A model generated the notes under the pieces. The model saw only the letters and a list, made by a program, of their open reading frames with translations, had not been told where the DNA came from and did no database searches. Of a stretch of DNA of 41,801 nucleotides, positions 5,515-41,609 are shown piece by piece. The stretch covers positions 1 through 41,801 of the forward strand of contig CAIRTW010000055.1 in NCBI GenBank assembly GCA_903881585.1, in the 5' to 3' direction. Both the position numbers and the translations under genes were made by a program. Source of the stretch: an uncultured Bacteroidota bacterium (GTDB lineage: Bacteria > Bacteroidota > Bacteroidia > Chitinophagales > Chitinophagaceae). How positions within the stretch are numbered: position 1 is the stretch's first letter; every line of letters starts with the position of its first letter.

Positions 5515-8500
5515 TCATTCTTCTTTGTGAGGTTGATCTTTGCCGGAGCTGATTTTTTCGCGGGCATGGGCGATCTCGAATTCGAGCTCGGCGTCTATGT
5601 TTTGCTCTTCGGCTTTTTTGGCTTTTTCCATCAGCTCATCGTGGTGGGCGAGGAGGTAGTCGAGCTCTTTTTTGCCGTAGGAGACACGGGTGATAACCAC
5701 AAACAGCACAGGAACTATGAAGATAGCCAGCGAGGATGCCGCTATCATACCGCCAAGGACCGTATAGCCTATGGTGTTGCGGGCTACGGCACCTGCACCA
5801 GTGGCAAAAACCAATGGCAGAACGCCAAGAATAAATGCCATGGATGTCATAATGATGGGGCGCAGGCGGAGCTTGACGGCCTCGAGGGTGGACTTGATGA
5901 GCTCTTCTCCCCTATCCACACGTATCTTAGCGAACTCAACGATAAGAATGGCGTTCTTGGCAGAGAGGCCAATGAGGGTGATGAGGCCGATCTGGGCATA
6001 GACATTGTTGGTAAGGTTGTCTTTGCAAAGAAGCATAATAATAGCGCCAAATGCACTTATTGGCACCGCCAGCATCACCGAGAATGGCACCGACCAGCTT
6101 TCATACAGTGCGGCCAGGAAGAGAAACACGAAAGTGATGGAGAAGATAAAGATATAGATGGTGGTTTTTCCCGCCTTGATCTCCTCATAACTAAGGCCTG
6201 AGAATTCGTAGGTATAACCCTGTGGCAGGACTTTGGCTGCGGTCTCTTTGAGCACCTCTATTGCCTGCCCGCTGCTGTACCCCTGCACACTCTGGCCGCC
6301 GACATTAGCCGAACGAAATATATTAAAATGCGTGACCAATGGCGGCGCTTCGGTTGCTTTGTAATTGATAAGCGTACTGAGCGGAACCATTGCCCCGGAT
6401 TGATTGCGCACGTAATATTTGTTCATATCGGATATAAGTGCGCGAAAGGTAGTATCTGCCTGTACTACCACGTGATAGGTTCGGTTGTAAAGGGTAAAGT
6501 TGTTTACAAAAAGGCTTCCCATATAAGCCTGCATTGTGGTAAATACATCGGAAACATTTACCCCCAGTTTTTCACATTTATCGCGGTCGAGTGTGAGGTC
6601 GATGCTGGGCGTATGAGCAGAATAATAACAATAAGCGCTGGCAGTTGCGGGGTTCTTATGTAAAGCGTCAACAAACTTCTTAACCACTGTCTCAAACTGA
6701 TGTACGTCATCTGTTGTGCTGCTTTGCTCTATCTCCATACTGAAGCCGGCCGCCTGGCCAATACCGCGTATGGGCGCAGGCGCGGTAACGACAACATTCG
6801 CATTCTTCAGCCCTGCTGCCGCAACACGTTTTTTTATCACTGCAATGATCCCTCCTGTGCCATTTACCTGCTCGTCCGGCTTTGAGCGTTCTTCCCAAGG
6901 CTTGAGCATAACGAAAATTGTACCGCAATTTGAAGTCGTACCCCCATTAAGTATGTTAAGACCTGACAACGCTGCATAATGATTGACTCCGGGAGTAGCA
7001 CCAACAATTTCCATGAGTTTTGTGATAAATTCGACTGATTGGGTAGTGGCGGATGCTTCCGGCAACTGATAGGTAATTTGTAACCTGCCATCATCTTCGG
7101 ACGGTATGAAACCTTTGGGTTTCTTAGTGAAACAATAAACAGTGGCAACGCAAATCAAAACCAGGAAAATGATAACATATCTCGACCAGCGGATGCAGCG
7201 CTTCACACCATTGGCATATTTGCCTGCCACCCTCTCGAACCATGCGTTGAACCGGAAGAAGAATTTGCCGAGCCACTTTGAGTCCTTGTTGATCTTAGTG
7301 GGTTTCAAAAGCAGCGTGCATAGTGCTGGGGTCAAAGACAACGCTATGAAAGCCGACAGCATAACCGATATAGCGATGGTGATAGCGAACTGCTGGTACA
7401 GGCGGCCAACGATGCCCGGAATGAAGCCCACGGGAACGAATACGGCTGCCAGAATGAGCGCGATAGCTACAACCGGCCCGGAAATGTCTTTCATGGCGCG
7501 ATAGGTGGCCTCCTTGGCTGACATGCCATATTCATCGATATAGTGCTGCACGGCTTCTACCACGATGATAGCATCATCTACCACAATACCGATGGCCAGC
7601 ACAAAGCCGAACATGGTGAGTGTATTGACTGTAAAGCCAAGCGGTATGAAGAAGCAGAACGTGCCTAATATAGATACGGGTATGGCAAGAATGGGTATGA
7701 GCGTGGAGCGCAGATTTTGCAGAAACAGCAATACCACAAGAGCAACAAGGCCCAAGGCTTTGAGCAATGTATCTATTACCTCGTGCATGGATACCTTGAT
7801 AATGGTAATGGACTCAAAAGGCACCTTATAATCTATATCCGCAGGGAAGGATTTTTTGAGCTGCTCCATTGCAGCATATACATTGTTTGCGGTCTCCAAT
7901 GCATTGCTGCCGGGCGCCTGGTAGATCATGAGGTAGGATGCAGGCTTACCATCGACAAAGGAATTGCTGGAGAATGTGAACTTGCCGAGCTCTACCCGAG
8001 CCACATCTTTGAGGTAGATAGACTCACCGGTGGCGGGAACAGTTTTGACGATCACCTTTTCAAAATCGGATGCATTTTTCAGCATTCCGTTTACGAGGAT
8101 GCCGAGCTCAAATGTCTGGGAGGTTTGCTGGGGCGGTGCGCCTGCAGCACCGGCGGCCACCTGCACATTCTGGGCGTTCAGTGCGGCAATGACATCGGCC
8201 GGCGTGAGGCTATGTGCTGCCATTTTCTCCGGGTCCATCCAGACGCGCATACTGAACTGGTCTGTGCGGGCGGTGATGTCCCCTACCCCAGGCACACGGA
8301 GCAGGGCATCCTGAATAAATATGTTGCTGTAGTTATCTATAAATGGCCTGTCGTGACTGCCGTTGGGTGAATAGATGGCTATCATCATCAACATACTGGG
8401 GTTCTTGGCACGAACGGTCATGCCGAGACGGCTGACTACTGATGGTAGTAAGGGAGTGGCAATACCTACACGGTTCTGCACATCGAGGGCCGCAATGTGA

Positions 8501-36056: not shown

Positions 36057-37271
36057 TCAGCCCGATTTTGCCTCCTGTAGTTGCAGCCACTTAAAGCCAG
36101 CAGCCCCAACCACACTAATACAGCCGATAGTCCACCAAAGAGTAACAAAGCCCAGGCGCTCGGCTATCTGCGACCCTACGAAAGGGCCCAGCACCTGCGC
36201 TATGGACCAGGCGGCTGTATAGAGCCCGGCATACTTCCCCCTGTTATTATGGTCGGTGCGGTTGATCCAAAAAGAGTTCATGAAGGGCATGGACAGCATT
36301 TCTCCTGCGGTGACAATGAAGGTGGAGAGTATGGCCAGCCACTTAGTGCCCGGCACAATGTTGAACACTACAAATGAAAGGCCCACCAGCAATGTGCCCA
36401 TGATAATATAGCGCATATTCTTCCGTCTTGGCTCAAGAGTGAAGACAATAGCCATTTCAAAGAGGGCGATGATAAGCCCATTCAATGCCATGATGCAGCC
36501 GATAAAGAATGGGGTAAGCAATAACTGCTGCTTGAAAAACACCGGTATGGTAGCAAAAAGCTGGAAGAAGCAAAAACCAAAAAGTATAGTAAGAATGATA
36601 AAAACAAAGTACAGCCGGTCTGAAAAAGCGGAGCGTTTCTTTTCTGTTTTCGAACGGTCTTTATGCAAAGGTGTCTGCTTATTTCGAGATGGATGTAATA
36701 CCAGCCGAAGCAATATAGCTGCCCCAATATTGGTAAGGCCGTCTATCCAGAAGAGTAAGTGATAATTTCTTGAAGCAATAAAACCGCCCACGGCGCCGCC
36801 TACGGCCCAGCCAAGATTTATAGACAAACGGTTGAGCGAATAGGAACGAGTGCGGTTCTCTTCTTTGCTGTATTGGGCTATGGCATTGGCATTGGCCGGG
36901 CGAAATGAATCGTTGAGTGTGGCGAGCACAAAAACACAAACACATATAGCCGGATAGTTGCTTAGCTGCCCCAAAAAGATGAACATGATGCCACCGCAAG
37001 TGAGCGCTCCAAGTTGCACATTGTAAAACCCAAACTTATCGGTGAGCTTACCACCTAACATACCTCCGCATATAGCGCCCATGCCAAAAACAGACATCAC
37101 CAGGCCGGCCTTACCAATAGGATAATGTTTGGCCTCGGTAAGGTACAGCGTCATAAATGGCACTACCATAGTGCCTGCCCTGTTTATGAGCATGACGAGG
37201 GATAACCACCAGGTGGCCGGAGATAATCCGCTATAGGCACTGCGATATAGGTTAGTAACTCGTGTTATCAT
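36057..37271 (-). CDS. MFS transporter
   Basis: A 404-residue inner-membrane protein with 12 predicted membrane helices split by a basic cytoplasmic loop (PSRNKQTPLHKDRSKTEKKR) after the sixth. The cytosolic MFS loop motif GGKLTDKFGFYNVQ between TM2 and TM3 matches the family GxxxDRxGRR pattern. TM1 begins LSPATWWLSLVMLINRAGTM. The closest-looking relatives are drug:proton antiporters or MdtH-type exporters, but the substrate and even the direction are not readable. The gene has its own -7 element (37299-37306) and a palindrome at its 5' end, and is separated from the Kai-linked receiver by 83 bases. Confidence 0.9.
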   Translation of the reverse strand: MITRVTNLYRSAYSGLSPATWWLSLVMLINRAGTMVVPFMTLYLTEAKHYPIGKAGLVMSVFGMGAICGGMLGGKLTDKFGFYNVQLGALTCGGIMFIFLGQLSNYPAICVCVFVLATLNDSFRPANANAIAQYSKEENRTRSYSLNRLSINLGWAVGGAVGGFIASRNYHLLFWIDGLTNIGAAILLRLVLHPSRNKQTPLHKDRSKTEKKRSAFSDRLYFVFIILTILFGFCFFQLFATIPVFFKQQLLLTPFFIGCIMALNGLIIALFEMAIVFTLEPRRKNMRYIIMGTLLVGLSFVVFNIVPGTKWLAILSTFIVTAGEMLSMPFMNSFWINRTDHNNRGKYAGLYTAAWSIAQVLGPFVGSQIAERLGFVTLWWTIGCISVVGAAGFKWLQLQEAKSG

Positions 37272-37354: not shown

Positions 37355-37771
37355 TCAGCCCACAATGTGTTCCATGCTGCTTTTTATCTTTTCTATAAAG
37401 GAGTCTATCATAAGGTTATAACTTTCCTTATTCGTGGGCTTCTGATGCACCAGCATAGCGCCAGCGGCGAGGCAGTTGTCTGTAAGGTTCAGGTCAGCGT
37501 AAGTAGAATAGACAAAAACAGGGATGTGCAAGTAACGGGGATTTGATTTTAGTAGTTTCAGCGCCTCCAGGCCATTCATTTTGGGCATGTTTTGATCCAG
37601 CAAAATCATGTCGGGCAAATCACTATCATCTGCCAGCGCATTAAGGAACTCCAATACTTCCAGCCCATTCTCTACACAATTAAGGATCGTGATGTCATCC
37701 CGGTCTTCCAGGAAATAAACAAAAAAGAATTTGTCATCGCTATCATCTTCTGCCAATACTACTTTCATCAT
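37355..37771 (-). CDS. Single-domain response regulator (CheY/Rcp-like), Kai operon
   Basis: A 138-residue receiver domain with no output domain. The phospho-acceptor is Asp59 in MILLDQNMPKMNG; the acidic pair is Asp9-Asp10 in LAEDDSDD; the Thr/Ser position is in VYSTYAD and the conserved Lys is Lys111 in HQKPTNK. The insert between the second helix and the phosphosite and the LLDQNMPKMNG form resemble Rcp1-type receivers that pair with phytochrome-like kinases. It lies 19 bases after the histidine kinase gene and is last in the operon, so it is the likely partner of that kinase. How it acts on cells without DNA-binding output is unclear. Confidence 0.92.
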   Translation of the reverse strand: MMKVVLAEDDSDDKFFFVYFLEDRDDITILNCVENGLEVLEFLNALADDSDLPDMILLDQNMPKMNGLEALKLLKSNPRYLHIPVFVYSTYADLNLTDNCLAAGAMLVHQKPTNKESYNLMIDSFIEKIKSSMEHIVG

Positions 37772-37790
37772 ACACTTAGCCTCAATTTCG

Positions 37791-39074
37791 TTAACGCTGT
37801 GCTACAGGTAAAATAATAATAAACTCAGATCCTACACCCGGCGTGCTGCGCGCAGTTATGAGTCCGTTATGCTTGTCAATGATCTTCTTGGCAACTGCCA
37901 GCCCTATCCCGGTCCCTTCGTACTTATCTTTGGTATTCAGCCGCTCAAACAAAGAAAAAACATTGGTCACATATTTCTGATCAAAGCCAATACCGTTGTC
38001 TTTAATGGAAATACGACAATATTGACCACTGACAAAAGGTTGCGCGTCGATCTCCTTGTCTTTTATTTTAACTGCAGTAATAGAGATATCCGGGGGCACG
38101 TAGTTTTTACTGAATTTCAGTGCGTTACTCAAAATGTTCTGAAAGATCTGCCTCAACTGGCCTTTATTGGCCTCAACAACAAGGAGGGCCTGGAAATGAA
38201 TTTTTGCTCTTTTTTCGCGGATGAGTATTTCATAGTCGTTCATCCAGTCGGTAACAATCTCAGAAAGATCAACCGGTTCGAAATTGTTGTCGTTGGCAGA
38301 AAGCCTGGAATAATTGAGGACGTCAATGATCAGCTGCTTCATGCGATCTGATGACGACAGTATCTTACTTATAAATAATTGCGCACTTTCGGAAAGGTTG
38401 TTTGTTTCCTTATCCCTGAGCAGGCTGGAAAAAACAGCAATTTTCCTCAGTGGTTCCTGCAGATCGTGCGAGGCCACAGACGCAAATTGCAGCAGGTCAT
38501 TATTACTTGCCTCAAGCGCCCGGTTAATTTTTTCGAGCTCTTCGTTTTTATTTTTCAGGTGCCGTTGTGCCTCTTTCTCAGAGGTAAGATCGGTAACGAT
38601 GATACTCAGGGAAAACCCTTCATCCAGTTCAAGGGTAGTCAATGACAACCGCACAGTAGGATGTTTTTTTGCCTTTAACACGACCTCGCCCTTGCAGTCT
38701 TCTTTCCATCCTCGCTCCATTAGCAGCCTGAACTGATTTTTATATCCCAATGAAATGAACTGATCAAAAGATGTACCTACTATCCCCGAGAGCGGAGTGC
38801 TCACCAGGCTGGCAAACTGCGAATTGCAATAAAGAATGATCCCTGATTTATTTAACGTTACCGCGCCTTCATTCATTTTTTCAATAAAAACGCGGTAGGT
38901 CTGATCTGAGCTCTTTAATGTATACAACTGGTGCCCGTTTTCACTTTCAACCACCAATGCATCTATCTGCCCGGTCCTGATAGCTTCAATTGTATCATTG
39001 GCTTCATCTAACTGCCAACGAAGCTCAGCAAGTTGCTTCACTATATCCTCATATGTCAGCGCTATTGCTTCCAT
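37791..39074 (-). CDS. PAS-domain sensor histidine kinase, Kai operon
   Basis: A 427-residue soluble kinase from the ATG at 39074; an in-frame upstream extension to 39140 would overlap the preceding KaiB gene. Order: N-terminal coiled coil (IVKQLAELRWQLDEANDTIE), a short segment ending at QTYRVF, a PAS domain (IEKMNEGAVTLNKSGIILYC onward), a second coiled coil (KNEELEKINRALEASNNDL), the HisKA box VASHDLQEPLRK (phospho-His 203) and the ATPase domain with NILSNALKFSK, IKDNGIGFDQKY and GTGIGLAVAKKII. No membrane helix and no KaiB-like N-terminal domain, unlike SasA. It probably couples the KaiC state to the downstream receiver. It starts 10 bases after kaiB-2. Confidence 0.92.
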   Translation of the reverse strand: MEAIALTYEDIVKQLAELRWQLDEANDTIEAIRTGQIDALVVESENGHQLYTLKSSDQTYRVFIEKMNEGAVTLNKSGIILYCNSQFASLVSTPLSGIVGTSFDQFISLGYKNQFRLLMERGWKEDCKGEVVLKAKKHPTVRLSLTTLELDEGFSLSIIVTDLTSEKEAQRHLKNKNEELEKINRALEASNNDLLQFASVASHDLQEPLRKIAVFSSLLRDKETNNLSESAQLFISKILSSSDRMKQLIIDVLNYSRLSANDNNFEPVDLSEIVTDWMNDYEILIREKRAKIHFQALLVVEANKGQLRQIFQNILSNALKFSKNYVPPDISITAVKIKDKEIDAQPFVSGQYCRISIKDNGIGFDQKYVTNVFSLFERLNTKDKYEGTGIGLAVAKKIIDKHNGLITARSTPGVGSEFIIILPVAQR

Positions 39075-39084
39075 ACATGCTATT

Positions 39085-39411
39085 TTAAATTTCCAGGCCG
39101 AGCCCGGATAAAACTTTCTTAGTATTCGACATATCACCAATCATCCTGCGCTCTGGCAAGGGGTACTTCTTTATCAGCTTAGGCAGTGCGATCAGCCCCT
39201 CGGTTTCCGCAATATCATGTGACTGATAGACATCAATAATTTCCAGTGAATAATCACCCGGAATGTTCGCTTCACAAATATTTTTCAGATTAGTTACTGC
39301 ACGCGAAGAGTTAGGCGATGCGCCGGTGATAAATAAACGAAGTACATATTTACTCTGCTTGATTTGTCCTGATGTTTCCTGCGATCTTCCATTTTTTCTT
39401 CTGTTGCTCAT
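39085..39411 (-). CDS. KaiB-like protein 2 (diverged)
   Basis: 108 residues with a basic, Ser/Gln-rich N-terminal extension (RRKNGRSQETSGQIKQSK) followed by one KaiB domain: YVLRLFITGASPNSSRAVTN, ANIPGDYSLEIIDVYQ, IALPKLIKKYPLPERRMIGDM and a KKVLSGLG end. The pattern LxVxGxxPxSxxAxxN and PxRxxIGDxS are kept, but the PTL of canonical KaiB is PKL and the extension is new. KaiB binds KaiC after switching fold; whether this one does cannot be read. It lies one base after kaiB-1, so the two must be co-translated closely. Probably a later-diverged duplicate with a separate partner. Confidence 0.88.
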   Translation of the reverse strand: MSNRRKNGRSQETSGQIKQSKYVLRLFITGASPNSSRAVTNLKNICEANIPGDYSLEIIDVYQSHDIAETEGLIALPKLIKKYPLPERRMIGDMSNTKKVLSGLGLEI

Positions 39412-39412
39412 T

Positions 39413-39706
39413 TTATTTGTTTACAGGGCGAATATTTAATCCCACCAACACTTTCTCTTCGTTAGACAGATCACCGATGATTTTCCGAATGGGCTCTGGT
39501 ACTTTTCTTACTAATGTGGGGATAGCAAGAATCTGGTCCCCTTCTGCCAATTGAGGCTGCACGAGCAGATCGATTATCTCTATTACATACTTTCCCTTCA
39601 GGTGTTCCTCGCAATACCGTTTGAGATTGGATATAGCTGTCACGGATTTTGTTGTTTTCCCGGCTACATAAAGGCGCAGCTCCCATGTTTGTTCTTCCGT
39701 ATCCAT
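39413..39706 (-). CDS. kaiB: KaiB
   Basis: 97 residues with the canonical KaiB plan: [61 protein letters not shown], and [14 protein letters not shown]. The ends match the cyanobacterial protein (102 residues) very well, including the QLAExDxILAxPTLxxxxPxPxRxIIGDLS string of the fold-switch region. KaiB would bind the phosphorylated KaiC CI ring and, in cyanobacteria, sequester KaiA; no kaiA is present here. Its ATG overlaps the KaiC stop by one base (TAATG), a sign of translational coupling. One of two KaiB genes; this one is the more typical. Confidence 0.95.
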
Positions 39707-41442
39707 TATTTTGCTTTTTTCCTTTTCTCGGTTGTGTTATTCTTATTGTTCCTGATATTGGTGATCGCTACCCTGTTTTTCTCCATTACCTCATTTCTCA
39801 GATCCTCCTCCACATACGACCTATAAAGCTCGTCTGAAATCGACTCAAACTCTTCCTTAACGCTGGCAATTTTAGCTTCAAGCACTGCCCGCTTCCTTTC
39901 TATTTCCTTATCTTTTCTTCCTACTGCAAAATCGCGCAGCACATTGCCAGCCTGAAGCTTAAGCTGCTCTGCCTCTCTTGCCGAGCCTGTAAGCACACCA
40001 TCCGAGCCCAGGAAAACATCCACAAGGTCGAGACCGAAATCTCTTATAATAAATTCGCGGACCTGGTTAGAGTGTTTCATGCCCCGGGATTTCATAATAT
40101 ACATGCCACGGTTGCGCTCACCGTTTGATTCTATATCCCTTACAAGCAACCATGCGTCCACCAGCGATGAGACGCCCTCATCCGTTTGCTCACTCACAAT
40201 AGTGTTTAACGTCAGCGCGGTGAACATCACCGTGATCTGCTCGGCCTGCGAAAAATCTATCAGCCTGATGAGCATAGATTTTACCTCACTTACAGAGCCA
40301 ACCGTAATAAGGTTTGTGATCGGGTCGAGGATTACTGTCTGCGGCTTAAATTTTTTGATGATCTTATACATCCTCACCAGGTGCATCTCAAGGCCAAATA
40401 ATGTTGGCCGGGACGCGTGAAACTGCAGCAATCCCTTTTTAACATGAGTATCAAGATCGATGCCGATCGATCTCATATTGCGAATGATCTGCTGCGGCGA
40501 TTCTTCAAAAGCAAAGTAGACGCATTTTTCTTTGCGCTGACAGGTCTGATCAGCAAAGAACGCCGCGATACTCGTCTTGCCCGTTCCGGCGGTACCAGAT
40601 ACGAGTATGCTGCTACCCTTAAAAAAGCCTTGTCCACCAAGCATCTCATCCAGGGCGGGAATGCCTGAAGGGAGCCGCTCCGACGAAACATCATGGTCTA
40701 GAAGCAAGGAGGTAACCGGAAGCACAGATATGCCATCAGAATCTATCAAAAACGGATATTCGTTAGTGCCATGCACGGAGCCACGATATTTTACCACCCT
40801 CAAAAATCGCGTAGATATTTTATCGGACACCCGATGCTCGAGTAAAATAACACAATCTGAAACATACTCCTCCAGGCCCTGCCGGGTTAGCAACCCATTG
40901 CCTTTTTCCCCGGTAATTATCGCCGTCACTTTTTTATCTTTCAGCCATTGAAATAGCCTTCTTAGCTCAGATCTGAGAATGGACTCGTTTGACAGGCCGG
41001 AAAAAAGATTCTCAATCGTATCCAATACTACCCTTTTGGCGCCAATGCTTGTGATGGCATGATCGAGCCTGATAAACAGCCCCTCGAGGTCGTACTCACC
41101 CGTCTCTTCGATCTCACTGCGCTCTATATGAATATGGTCTATTTTCAGCATGCCGTCCTGCTGCAATTGCTGCAGCTCGAAACCAAGCGAGGCAACATTC
41201 ATGGCGAGCTCTTCTGATTTTTCTTCAAACGCAACGAATACTCCAGGTTCGTTATATTCCGTGGCGCCCCGCACTATAAATTCGATTGACAGCAATGTCT
41301 TGCCGCATCCCGGCTCGCCACAAACCAGTGTTGGCCTGCCAGCAGGAATGCCACCACCTGTTAACTCATCGAGCCCGGTAATACCTGTCGGTGTTTTTGC
41401 TAAGGTGAATTTTGATAACGATTTGTCTTTTTTTGAAGTCAT
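39706..41442 (-). CDS. kaiC: KaiC two-lobed ATPase/kinase
   Basis: A 578-residue double RecA-like protein, first gene of the operon. [18 protein letters not shown], Walker A GEPGCGKT (42-49), catalytic Glu pair in VAFEE (73-74). [21 protein letters not shown], Walker A GTAGTGKT (283-290), FEE (Glu 313-314). At the position of the S. elongatus phosphosites (Ser431/Thr432, in HISTITD) it has GVSSLVD, so Ser425-Ser426. After about residue 505 it carries a charged helical tail ([30 protein letters not shown]) about 60 residues longer than the 519-residue cyanobacterial protein and without its recognisable KaiA-binding end. Such KaiCs outside cyanobacteria are usually hexameric ATPases; autophosphorylation is plausible, but a true rhythm is not shown. 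Confidence 0.95.
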
Positions 41443-41583: not shown

Positions 41584-41609
41584 ATAAAAAAAGGGCCGTT
41601 ACCGGCCCT
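41584..41609 (-). terminator. Rho-independent terminator for a leftward gene beyond the window
   Basis: AGGGCCG (41592-41598), loop TTAC, CGGCCCT (41603-41609). On the minus strand the stem is followed by a T-run (A-run at 41586-41592 on the plus strand). So it ends a transcript coming from the right, which insulates the Kai operon from it. Confidence 0.75.

Follow-up and report, generated by a model that had tools for sequence, protein, structure and literature searches.

Among the Kai systems described so far, the closest to the one treated here is the KaiBC hourglass of Rhodobacter (Cereibacter) sphaeroides (structures 8dba and 8fwj). It lacks KaiA, is set by the ATP/ADP ratio, and has a KaiC whose C-terminal tail forms a coiled coil joining two hexamers (PMC10076222). 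In cyanobacteria, SasA binds the CI ring of KaiC through a KaiB-like thioredoxin domain, in competition with KaiB (PMC6769508). Outside the cyanobacteria, kaiC-kaiB followed by a kinase gene was in print by 2011 (PMC3164672), and a Bacteroidetes group with only KaiB2/KaiC2-type proteins has been noted already; stimulation of SasA homologues by KaiC outside cyanobacteria was argued to be very unlikely because the KaiB-like domain is missing (PMC5520375). Here we analyze a kaiC-kaiB-kaiB-kinase-receiver operon carried by a 41,801-nucleotide stretch of DNA ("the window"; contig CAIRTW010000055.1 of assembly GCA_903881585.1) from an uncultured member of the Chitinophagaceae (Bacteroidota). A KaiA-less KaiBC operon with a kinase is already known; what is new is a pair of KaiB proteins with predicted opposite resting states, along with a putative reader module that reaches R. 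sphaeroides. In the reading we favor, and to which we give not quite an even chance, KaiC is read by a split SasA made up of the second KaiB and the kinase module, and the first KaiB acts as its timed competitor.

The window operon and that of R. sphaeroides are alike in KaiC type, in the two serines and the C-terminal tail of KaiC, in the kaiC-kaiB-kinase order and in the module at the kinase N-terminus; they differ in that R. sphaeroides has one KaiB and an HWE kinase, whereas the window has two KaiBs, a HisKA kinase and a receiver. The cyanobacterial SasA-RpaA pair likewise combines a thioredoxin-like KaiB-family domain and a histidine kinase beside a KaiC system, but in the window the KaiB-family domain, whose thioredoxin-like fold is predicted, is a separate protein and the receiver lacks a DNA-binding domain, unlike RpaA, which binds DNA. 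KaiB TV-4 (8ubh) and Legionella pneumophila KaiB (4kun), both fold-switched, share the fold predicted for the second KaiB. Rhodopseudomonas palustris has kaiC, kaiB and a PAS histidine kinase gene thought to share one promoter, with a single kaiB, a likeness drawn from description and not from sequence (PMC4794148). In Ramlibacter, a kinase with a special N-terminal part (Nt_HK) is co-transcribed with kaiC; that genome, however, has no kaiB, and the N-terminus is described as weakly SasA/KaiB-like (PMC3164672), whereas the window operon includes KaiBs and its kinase has a front module of its own.

Results

The operon lies on the minus strand and comprises kaiC (578 amino acids (aa), two KaiC ATPase domains; 39706-41442), the first KaiB gene, kaiBa (97 aa; 39413-39706), the second, kaiBb (108 aa; 39085-39411), a soluble PAS histidine kinase gene (427 aa; 37791-39074) and a stand-alone receiver gene (138 aa; 37355-37771). 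The names KaiBa and KaiBb were chosen to avoid the cyanobacterial KaiB1-3. Going down the operon, the genes are joined by a 1-base overlap and then by gaps of 1, 10 and 19 bases; the kinase is taken to start at the ATG at 39074, while the list of open reading frames (ORFs) starts it at an upstream TTG (39140). A first-pass annotation, made from the sequence alone, had proposed these five leftward genes, their spacing and their families (clock-type KaiC, two KaiBs, soluble PAS kinase, stand-alone receiver). Coordinates and gaps were reproduced, and Pfam agrees with the families: the KaiBs exceed the cut-off of 27 bits with scores of 95.0 and 74.5, the kinase matches PAS_9 (below cut-off), HisKA and HATPase_c, and the receiver is Response_reg alone, which bears out the reported lack of a DNA-binding output. 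The system was also rightly called KaiA-less, as the KaiA family PF07688 has no match at E<=1 in the source genome, a draft of 376 contigs (96.6% complete, 5.2% contaminated). Both KaiB matches of that genome are inside the operon.

The same annotation had called for a search of the gene order in relatives and had named loss of synteny as the adverse outcome. Conservation was found instead. When the window is compared with the 80 named loci nearest to its KaiC (the best 80 of at least 575 relatives), kaiC, two kaiB genes and a gene opening with the N-terminal module described below stand in a row at 78 of the 81 loci. The exceptions are L064, cut by a contig end, and L101 and L114, each with a single KaiB; L108 has a third KaiB in the operon. 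The sensor-to-receiver wiring noted earlier is present in the window, but the receiver is not constant: of the 78 two-KaiB operons, 23 have it directly after the kinase, and in Dyadobacter loci L060, L078, L079, L084 and L085 it precedes kaiC instead. KaiC itself is patchy (at E<=1e-60, 5 of 60 near relatives and 42 of 395 phylum-wide Bacteroidota genomes, the source genome being counted in both). Twenty of the 42 have two KaiBs in the operon, eight have one KaiB plus a module gene, four have KaiB without a module gene (G064, G136, G145, G317), and ten have no KaiB. The KaiCs of these last ten genomes (G094, G113, G174, G238, G282, G321, G380, G384, G407, G451), which show no KaiB match at all, are 55-60% identical to the window KaiC (L154, L155, L157-L164), and a receiver protein of 230-270 aa is encoded just upstream in L155, L158, L162, L163 and L164.

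AlphaFold2 was run on both KaiBs with alignments of 70 sequences each, drawn from nearly the same genome set. The KaiBa model runs strand-helix-strand-helix-helix-strand with a mean predicted local distance difference test (pLDDT) score of 77; the KaiBb model runs strand-helix-strand-helix-strand-strand-helix with a mean of 83, 57 of its 108 residues scoring at least 90. With Foldseek, all 17 PDB matches of the KaiBa model at E<0.001 are free KaiB crystals (1wwj, 2qke, 1vgl, 1r5p, 4kso), which we take to show the ground state. For the KaiBb model, the first 16 matches are fold-switched or KaiC-bound KaiB chains or chains of the SasA N-terminal domain (SasA-N), followed by thioredoxins. The best are L. 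pneumophila KaiB 4kun, the fold-switched or KaiC-bound chains 5jwr, 8fwj, 5jwo and 5jyt, 8ubh, and SasA-N 1t4y/6x61; one of the 50 matches shown, the 49th, is a ground-state KaiB, with an alignment of 58 columns. VIA aligns KaiBb with 4kun at Z 15.0 (root mean square deviation (rmsd) 1.5, 89 residues aligned), with 5jwr at Z 14.5 (rmsd 1.7, 89) and with 1t4y at Z 11.4 (rmsd 2.3, 94), and KaiBa with 1r5p at Z 10.2 (rmsd 2.4, 86). Ordinary thioredoxins reach Z 12.2 against KaiBb, so that the VIA result speaks to fold and not to function. On these models, KaiBa is predicted to rest in the ground state, whereas the predicted resting state of KaiBb is the fold-switched, SasA-like one.

I68R and V83D, along with a change at N84, are the substitutions reported to convert R. 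sphaeroides KaiB to its fold-switched form (PMC10808063). At the sites equivalent to I68 and V83, placed by alignment at 73 and 88 in T. elongatus numbering, 80 of 84 KaiBb sequences carry at least one charge, 43 of them at the two sites together, as against none of 79 KaiBa. These counts omit four archaea-labelled sequences of each kind, the inclusion of which gives 80/88 and 1/83. All three fold-switch prolines are found in 83 of 83 KaiBa, which fits a canonical fold-switching KaiB with a predicted ground state. L73/V88/D91 are retained in several single KaiBs at the base of the KaiBb clade (see below), and the KaiBb lock would thus have arisen later, within two-KaiB operons.

The best structural match of KaiBb, L. 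pneumophila KaiB, has been linked to stress, and its crystals show the fold-switched state (PMC10808063). This raises the question of whether KaiBb is a non-clock KaiB of the Legionella type, a thioredoxin-like protein that acts in stress or partners a kinase and makes no contact with KaiC. The divergence of its KaiC-contact helix would fit, as would the existence of KaiBs directly beside kinases in genomes with no KaiC match at E<=1e-60 (L190-L192). Yet two KaiBs are retained in the kaiC operon at 79 of the 81 loci (78 with a module gene, plus the truncated L064), and the sole KaiBb-clade KaiB seen away from kaiC (L189, in G445) belongs to a genome that also has the operon. We therefore regard this explanation as improbable.

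A tree of 154 KaiB domains over 87 columns, in which 82 of 151 forks are unresolved and roughly one in three of the B1 and B2 rows was kept, unites the KaiBs of kaiC-first operons in one clade, starred, with support 98. Inside it are a KaiBa clade (41 rows) and a KaiBb clade (58 rows), with support values of 83 and 88 respectively, a weakly supported division of the two paralogues into clades that both lie below the starred level. The R. sphaeroides KaiB, together with that of L233, and the KaiB of L238 fall inside the starred clade and outside both of these. For rows of the KaiBa clade, no kinase-type gene lies 150 bases away or less; the one in L169 and L173 comes after a 241-base gap, and inspection by eye of the three coding-strand frames of this gap showed no KaiB remnant. 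Single KaiBs preceding a module gene are of the KaiBb clade in L101, L114, L165-L168, L170, L171, L180 and L181 and, in the Proteobacteria set, in L236, L239, L260 and L262, but not in L169, L173, L233 and L238. Single KaiBs without a module gene (L151, L156) group with KaiBa.

The module in question is a conserved stretch of about 56 residues that, in the alignment, opens the gene after KaiB, ahead of the PAS domain. In the window kinase it spans aa 8-63 (38886-39053) and is followed by PAS (about aa 63-164; 38583-38888), HisKA (aa 195-260; 38295-38492) and HATPase_c (aa 305-425; 37800-38162), all on the minus strand; we propose it as the reader. Its sequence (aa 1-63) has no Pfam match above cut-off and no NCBIfam match at E<=0.1; NCBIfam NF006800 covers the kinase part only (93.1 bits against a cut-off of 342). 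By Pfam there is no fused KaiB-like domain, which sets the kinase apart from SasA, as the first-pass annotation had remarked.

One copy of the module exists in the source genome. Of the 395 Bacteroidota genomes, for each of which at most 16 candidates were scored, 29 have a match. Twenty-eight of these are at E<=4.5e-16, one per genome, all in genomes with KaiC and KaiB; 26 of them lie within 100 bases of a KaiB match, and the remaining two, in G188 and G292, are 293 bases from theirs. The twenty-ninth (G301) is weak (2.6e-4), in a genome without a KaiB match. KaiB-positive genomes without the module are G064, G073, G136, G145, G242, G317 and G431, as well as G235 and G275, where KaiB is partial. 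G073, G242 and G431 are the genomes, with no KaiC match at E<=1e-60, in which a KaiB lies beside a kinase (L190, 6547-6834; L191, 6109-6381; L192, 6846-7118). In Proteobacteria, the phylum of the Gallionella-labelled L114 genome, 80 genomes were scored (all 37 KaiB-positive and 43 of 361 KaiB-negative). Eleven have a match, ten of them in kaiC-first operons (10 of 11 such operons, G593 being the other) while the eleventh (G532, 9.5e-4) sits on a contig for which no KaiB is listed; none of the 43 KaiB-negative genomes has one. Among the fetched loci the module occurs in 112 of 8853 ORFs of at least 60 aa, always directly after KaiB (112/112), a count for which only the flanks serve as control since the loci were selected for Kai genes. 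On plasmids, a module+PAS query from L233 matches 13 of 72,556 records, all 13 beside KaiB, although nine of the 13 are R. sphaeroides and hence not independent; 17 plasmid records have KaiB, four of them without a module match. In R. sphaeroides 2.4.1 an HWE kinase with the module begins 5 bases after KaiB-RS (WP_002725098.1). In the sets searched, then, the module is almost confined to genes after kaiB. Among 117 listed KaiB places we found no KaiB-kinase fusion; one place is in an open frame above 300 aa (G524, 360 aa; 91 aa from the first start codon; L256). In what we consulted of the open-access literature, including parts of PMC10359499 and PMC11372060, we found no description of the module or of a ground-state/locked KaiB pair in one operon.

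How the kinase would sense KaiC had been left open in the first-pass annotation. The predicted fold-switched state of KaiBb, together with the near confinement of the module to kaiB loci, offers a candidate route. One could also envision that the module contacts KaiC directly, or any KaiB on KaiC, with KaiBb as an extra, always-ready KaiB that tunes KaiC dephosphorylation while the kinase works independently of it. Such an arrangement would accommodate the module beside the single KaiB of R. sphaeroides and of kaiC-first Proteobacteria, its presence with KaiBa alone in G188 and G292, and the module operons L233 and L238, whose single KaiBs lie outside both clades. Nevertheless, wherever the kaiC operon of a genome in the 395-genome sample includes a KaiB of the KaiBb type, the module is present too (26 of 26 genomes, 20 of them two-KaiB and six being singles of genus g83), as against two of the 11 other KaiB-positive genomes (two of the 11 having a partial KaiB). 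Moreover, a lone KaiB beside a module gene is mostly of the KaiBb clade (the 14 loci named above). We consider direct contact unlikely, though less so than a Legionella-type role.

The domains behind the front part vary: HisKA+HATPase in the window and L044, a hybrid kinase in L107, an HWE kinase in L233, HD_5 in L165 (the one locus scanned of its kind) and GGDEF-EAL in L260. The gene after the KaiBs is therefore a histidine kinase in the window, as first read, but this does not extend to L165 and L260, and the kinase is of the HWE type in L233 and R. sphaeroides. HD_5 is presumably of the HD-GYP kind. In L165, of family f37 and genus g83, it lies behind the module (6139-7311); L166-L168, L170 and L171 were judged similar by length and absence of a kinase core, and the output of this genus may act on cyclic di-GMP. 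Kinases or GGDEF/EAL proteins after kaiC or kaiB were noted in 2011, section 17 of that paper making no mention of a front part common to the group (PMC3164672). The kinase could conversely be an input, its PAS domain sensing redox or another cue and setting KaiC or KaiB. A PAS domain is indeed present in the window kinase, and the kinase of the R. sphaeroides kaiBC operon has been suggested to carry a redox signal to KaiBC (PMC5520375). Of the alternatives, we find this the hardest to credit: a conserved front followed by domains ranging from phosphotransfer to the cyclic di-GMP type would better suit a reader with changeable outputs.

By its sequence, the window KaiC is of the KaiA-less R. 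sphaeroides type. Its best solved relatives are R. sphaeroides KaiC chains (8dba at 632 bits), against at most 361 bits for chains outside that group. It has the double domain; two phosphorylatable residues, S425-S426 (codons 40165-40170, minus strand), aligned to the two R. sphaeroides serines, replaced by Glu (S413E/S414E) in the second of the chains shown (u143481, entry 8fwi); and a C-terminal tail (aa 490-550; 39793-39975, minus strand) aligned up to aa 550 to the R. sphaeroides tail that forms the coiled coil. The draft genome has KaiB and no KaiA match, as this type would have it.

Related operons turn up in records of unexpected label. Archaeal records L107, L108, L109 and L112 (Methanoperedens/archaeon) and the Gallionella metagenome-assembled genome (MAG) L114 carry the operon, with KaiCs 61-66% identical to that of the window, which suggests either cross-domain transfer or misbinned contigs. 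The operon is also present in L076 (JADCRZ010000009.1), a MAG labelled Williamsia that is perhaps mislabelled or a mixed bin (KaiC 72% identical to the window KaiC). Within the genus of the window organism, an in-frame TAA interrupts the KaiC gene of L011/L181 (G007), which is thus either broken or misassembled. In Pararhizobium qamdonense, kaiC-kaiB-kaiB precedes a gene for a module protein that is annotated as a response regulator. Many Proteobacteria show a kaiB-kaiC layout, in which a diverged second KaiB is frequent, as are receivers or kinases close by (L246-L256, L259, L263-L265); no module match better than 9.5e-4 was found in genomes of this layout.

Upstream of kaiC, a terminator-like hairpin with a T-run (41592-41609, minus strand; a consensus match only) may perhaps end the preceding transcript; the region holds five terminator-like sites against 4.9 in shuffles. 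Consensus matching reported none between the receiver and an MFS transporter gene on the same strand (36057-37271) that begins 83 bases beyond it. MFS homologues adjoin the operon in same-genus loci only (L041/L178, L179). In L041-L106, no flanking gene is common to 10 or more loci, other than an ORF antisense to kaiC (ORFs of at least 150 aa without Kai, kinase or receiver matches were compared). Because flanking genes are not shared beyond the genus, the operon would seem to behave as a self-contained cassette.

Discussion

The split-SasA reading takes its cue from the fact that the kinase has no KaiB-like domain while the preceding gene encodes a protein predicted to have that fold. KaiBa would rest in the KaiB ground state and switch slowly, like R. 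sphaeroides KaiB, and KaiBb would stay in the thioredoxin-like, KaiC-docking state. KaiC would follow the ATP/ADP ratio. As long as KaiBa is in the ground state, KaiBb would occupy the CI ring of KaiC and present a signal there, and the kinase would join through its N-terminal module, the two proteins amounting to a two-piece equivalent of SasA. The kinase would then autophosphorylate and hand its phosphate on to the adjacent receiver or, in operons that lack one, to a different receiver. Once KaiBa had switched fold, it would displace KaiBb from the shared site and thereby silence the kinase. Where an operon has a single KaiB, as in R. sphaeroides, that protein would take on both roles. Fold-switched KaiB is also bound by CikA, and a CikA-like use of KaiBb would be a variant of the same model.

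A number of observations weigh against this proposal. The window KaiBb is charged at one of the two sites only (E at 73, S at 88). All three fold-switch prolines, the slow step of KaiB switching (PMC11551320), are kept in 78 of 88 KaiBb, and because of this the ability of KaiBb to switch may not be lost. The choice that AlphaFold2 makes between KaiB states is disputed in print; since the program was also trained on KaiB structures, the fold and residue results are not fully independent. Helix alpha2, which contacts KaiC (PMC6769508), is nearly invariant in aligned KaiBa sequences and diverged in KaiBb. The KaiBb clade includes rows without a module gene, namely the orphan L189, L064 at its contig end, and the long-branch L241-L244, whose position in the tree is unsure. 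Nor does the module always need KaiBb, because G188 and G292 have KaiC, KaiBa and a module kinase without it and the R. sphaeroides operon has one KaiB plus the module. Further module copies could have been missed under the limit on candidates scored.

Three candidate marks, one of a SasA-like KaiBb and two of its link with the kinase, were rejected, the last two telling against the model as well. The charges of cooperative KaiB binding, R23/K26 (PMC6769508), were considered as a simple SasA-like pattern; R23, however, is present in 67 of 88 KaiBb, KaiBa having mostly T or A, which argues against it. Residue 48 is Leu in KaiBa and Tyr, His or Ser in KaiBb, and among 250 distinct KaiB domains it is other than Leu in 106 of 109 module-followed KaiBs versus 9 of 141 others; but independent pairs are too few (four on starred branches) for it to be built on as a kinase-contact mark. 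A mirror-tree comparison over 87 loci showed no specificity in the pairing of KaiBb with the kinase (partial r of distances with the kinase: 0.26 for KaiBb, 0.20 for KaiBa and 0.32 for KaiC).

It is tempting to extend the split-SasA model further, to a generalization that we hold more loosely than the model itself. The kaiC-first KaiBC clocks might share one output interface, a kaiB-tied N-terminal reader module placed ahead of exchangeable output enzymes (HisKA, HWE, HD_5, GGDEF-EAL), to which two-KaiB operons would add a division between a metamorphic timer and a locked adaptor KaiB. Such an interface would report time in KaiA-less Bacteroidota, Proteobacteria (among them R. sphaeroides) and Methanoperedens-labelled archaea. 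The reader model is directly testable in R. sphaeroides, whose KaiB and KaiC have already been purified and solved. If correct, a separate locked KaiB and a conserved reader module would answer how non-cyanobacterial KaiB-KaiC timers signal onward, and the field of fold switching would gain a metamorphic and a locked homologue that occur naturally side by side in the same operon. The KaiB pair, together with the kinase and its unusual N-terminus, suggests how KaiA-less clocks could pass their signal on.

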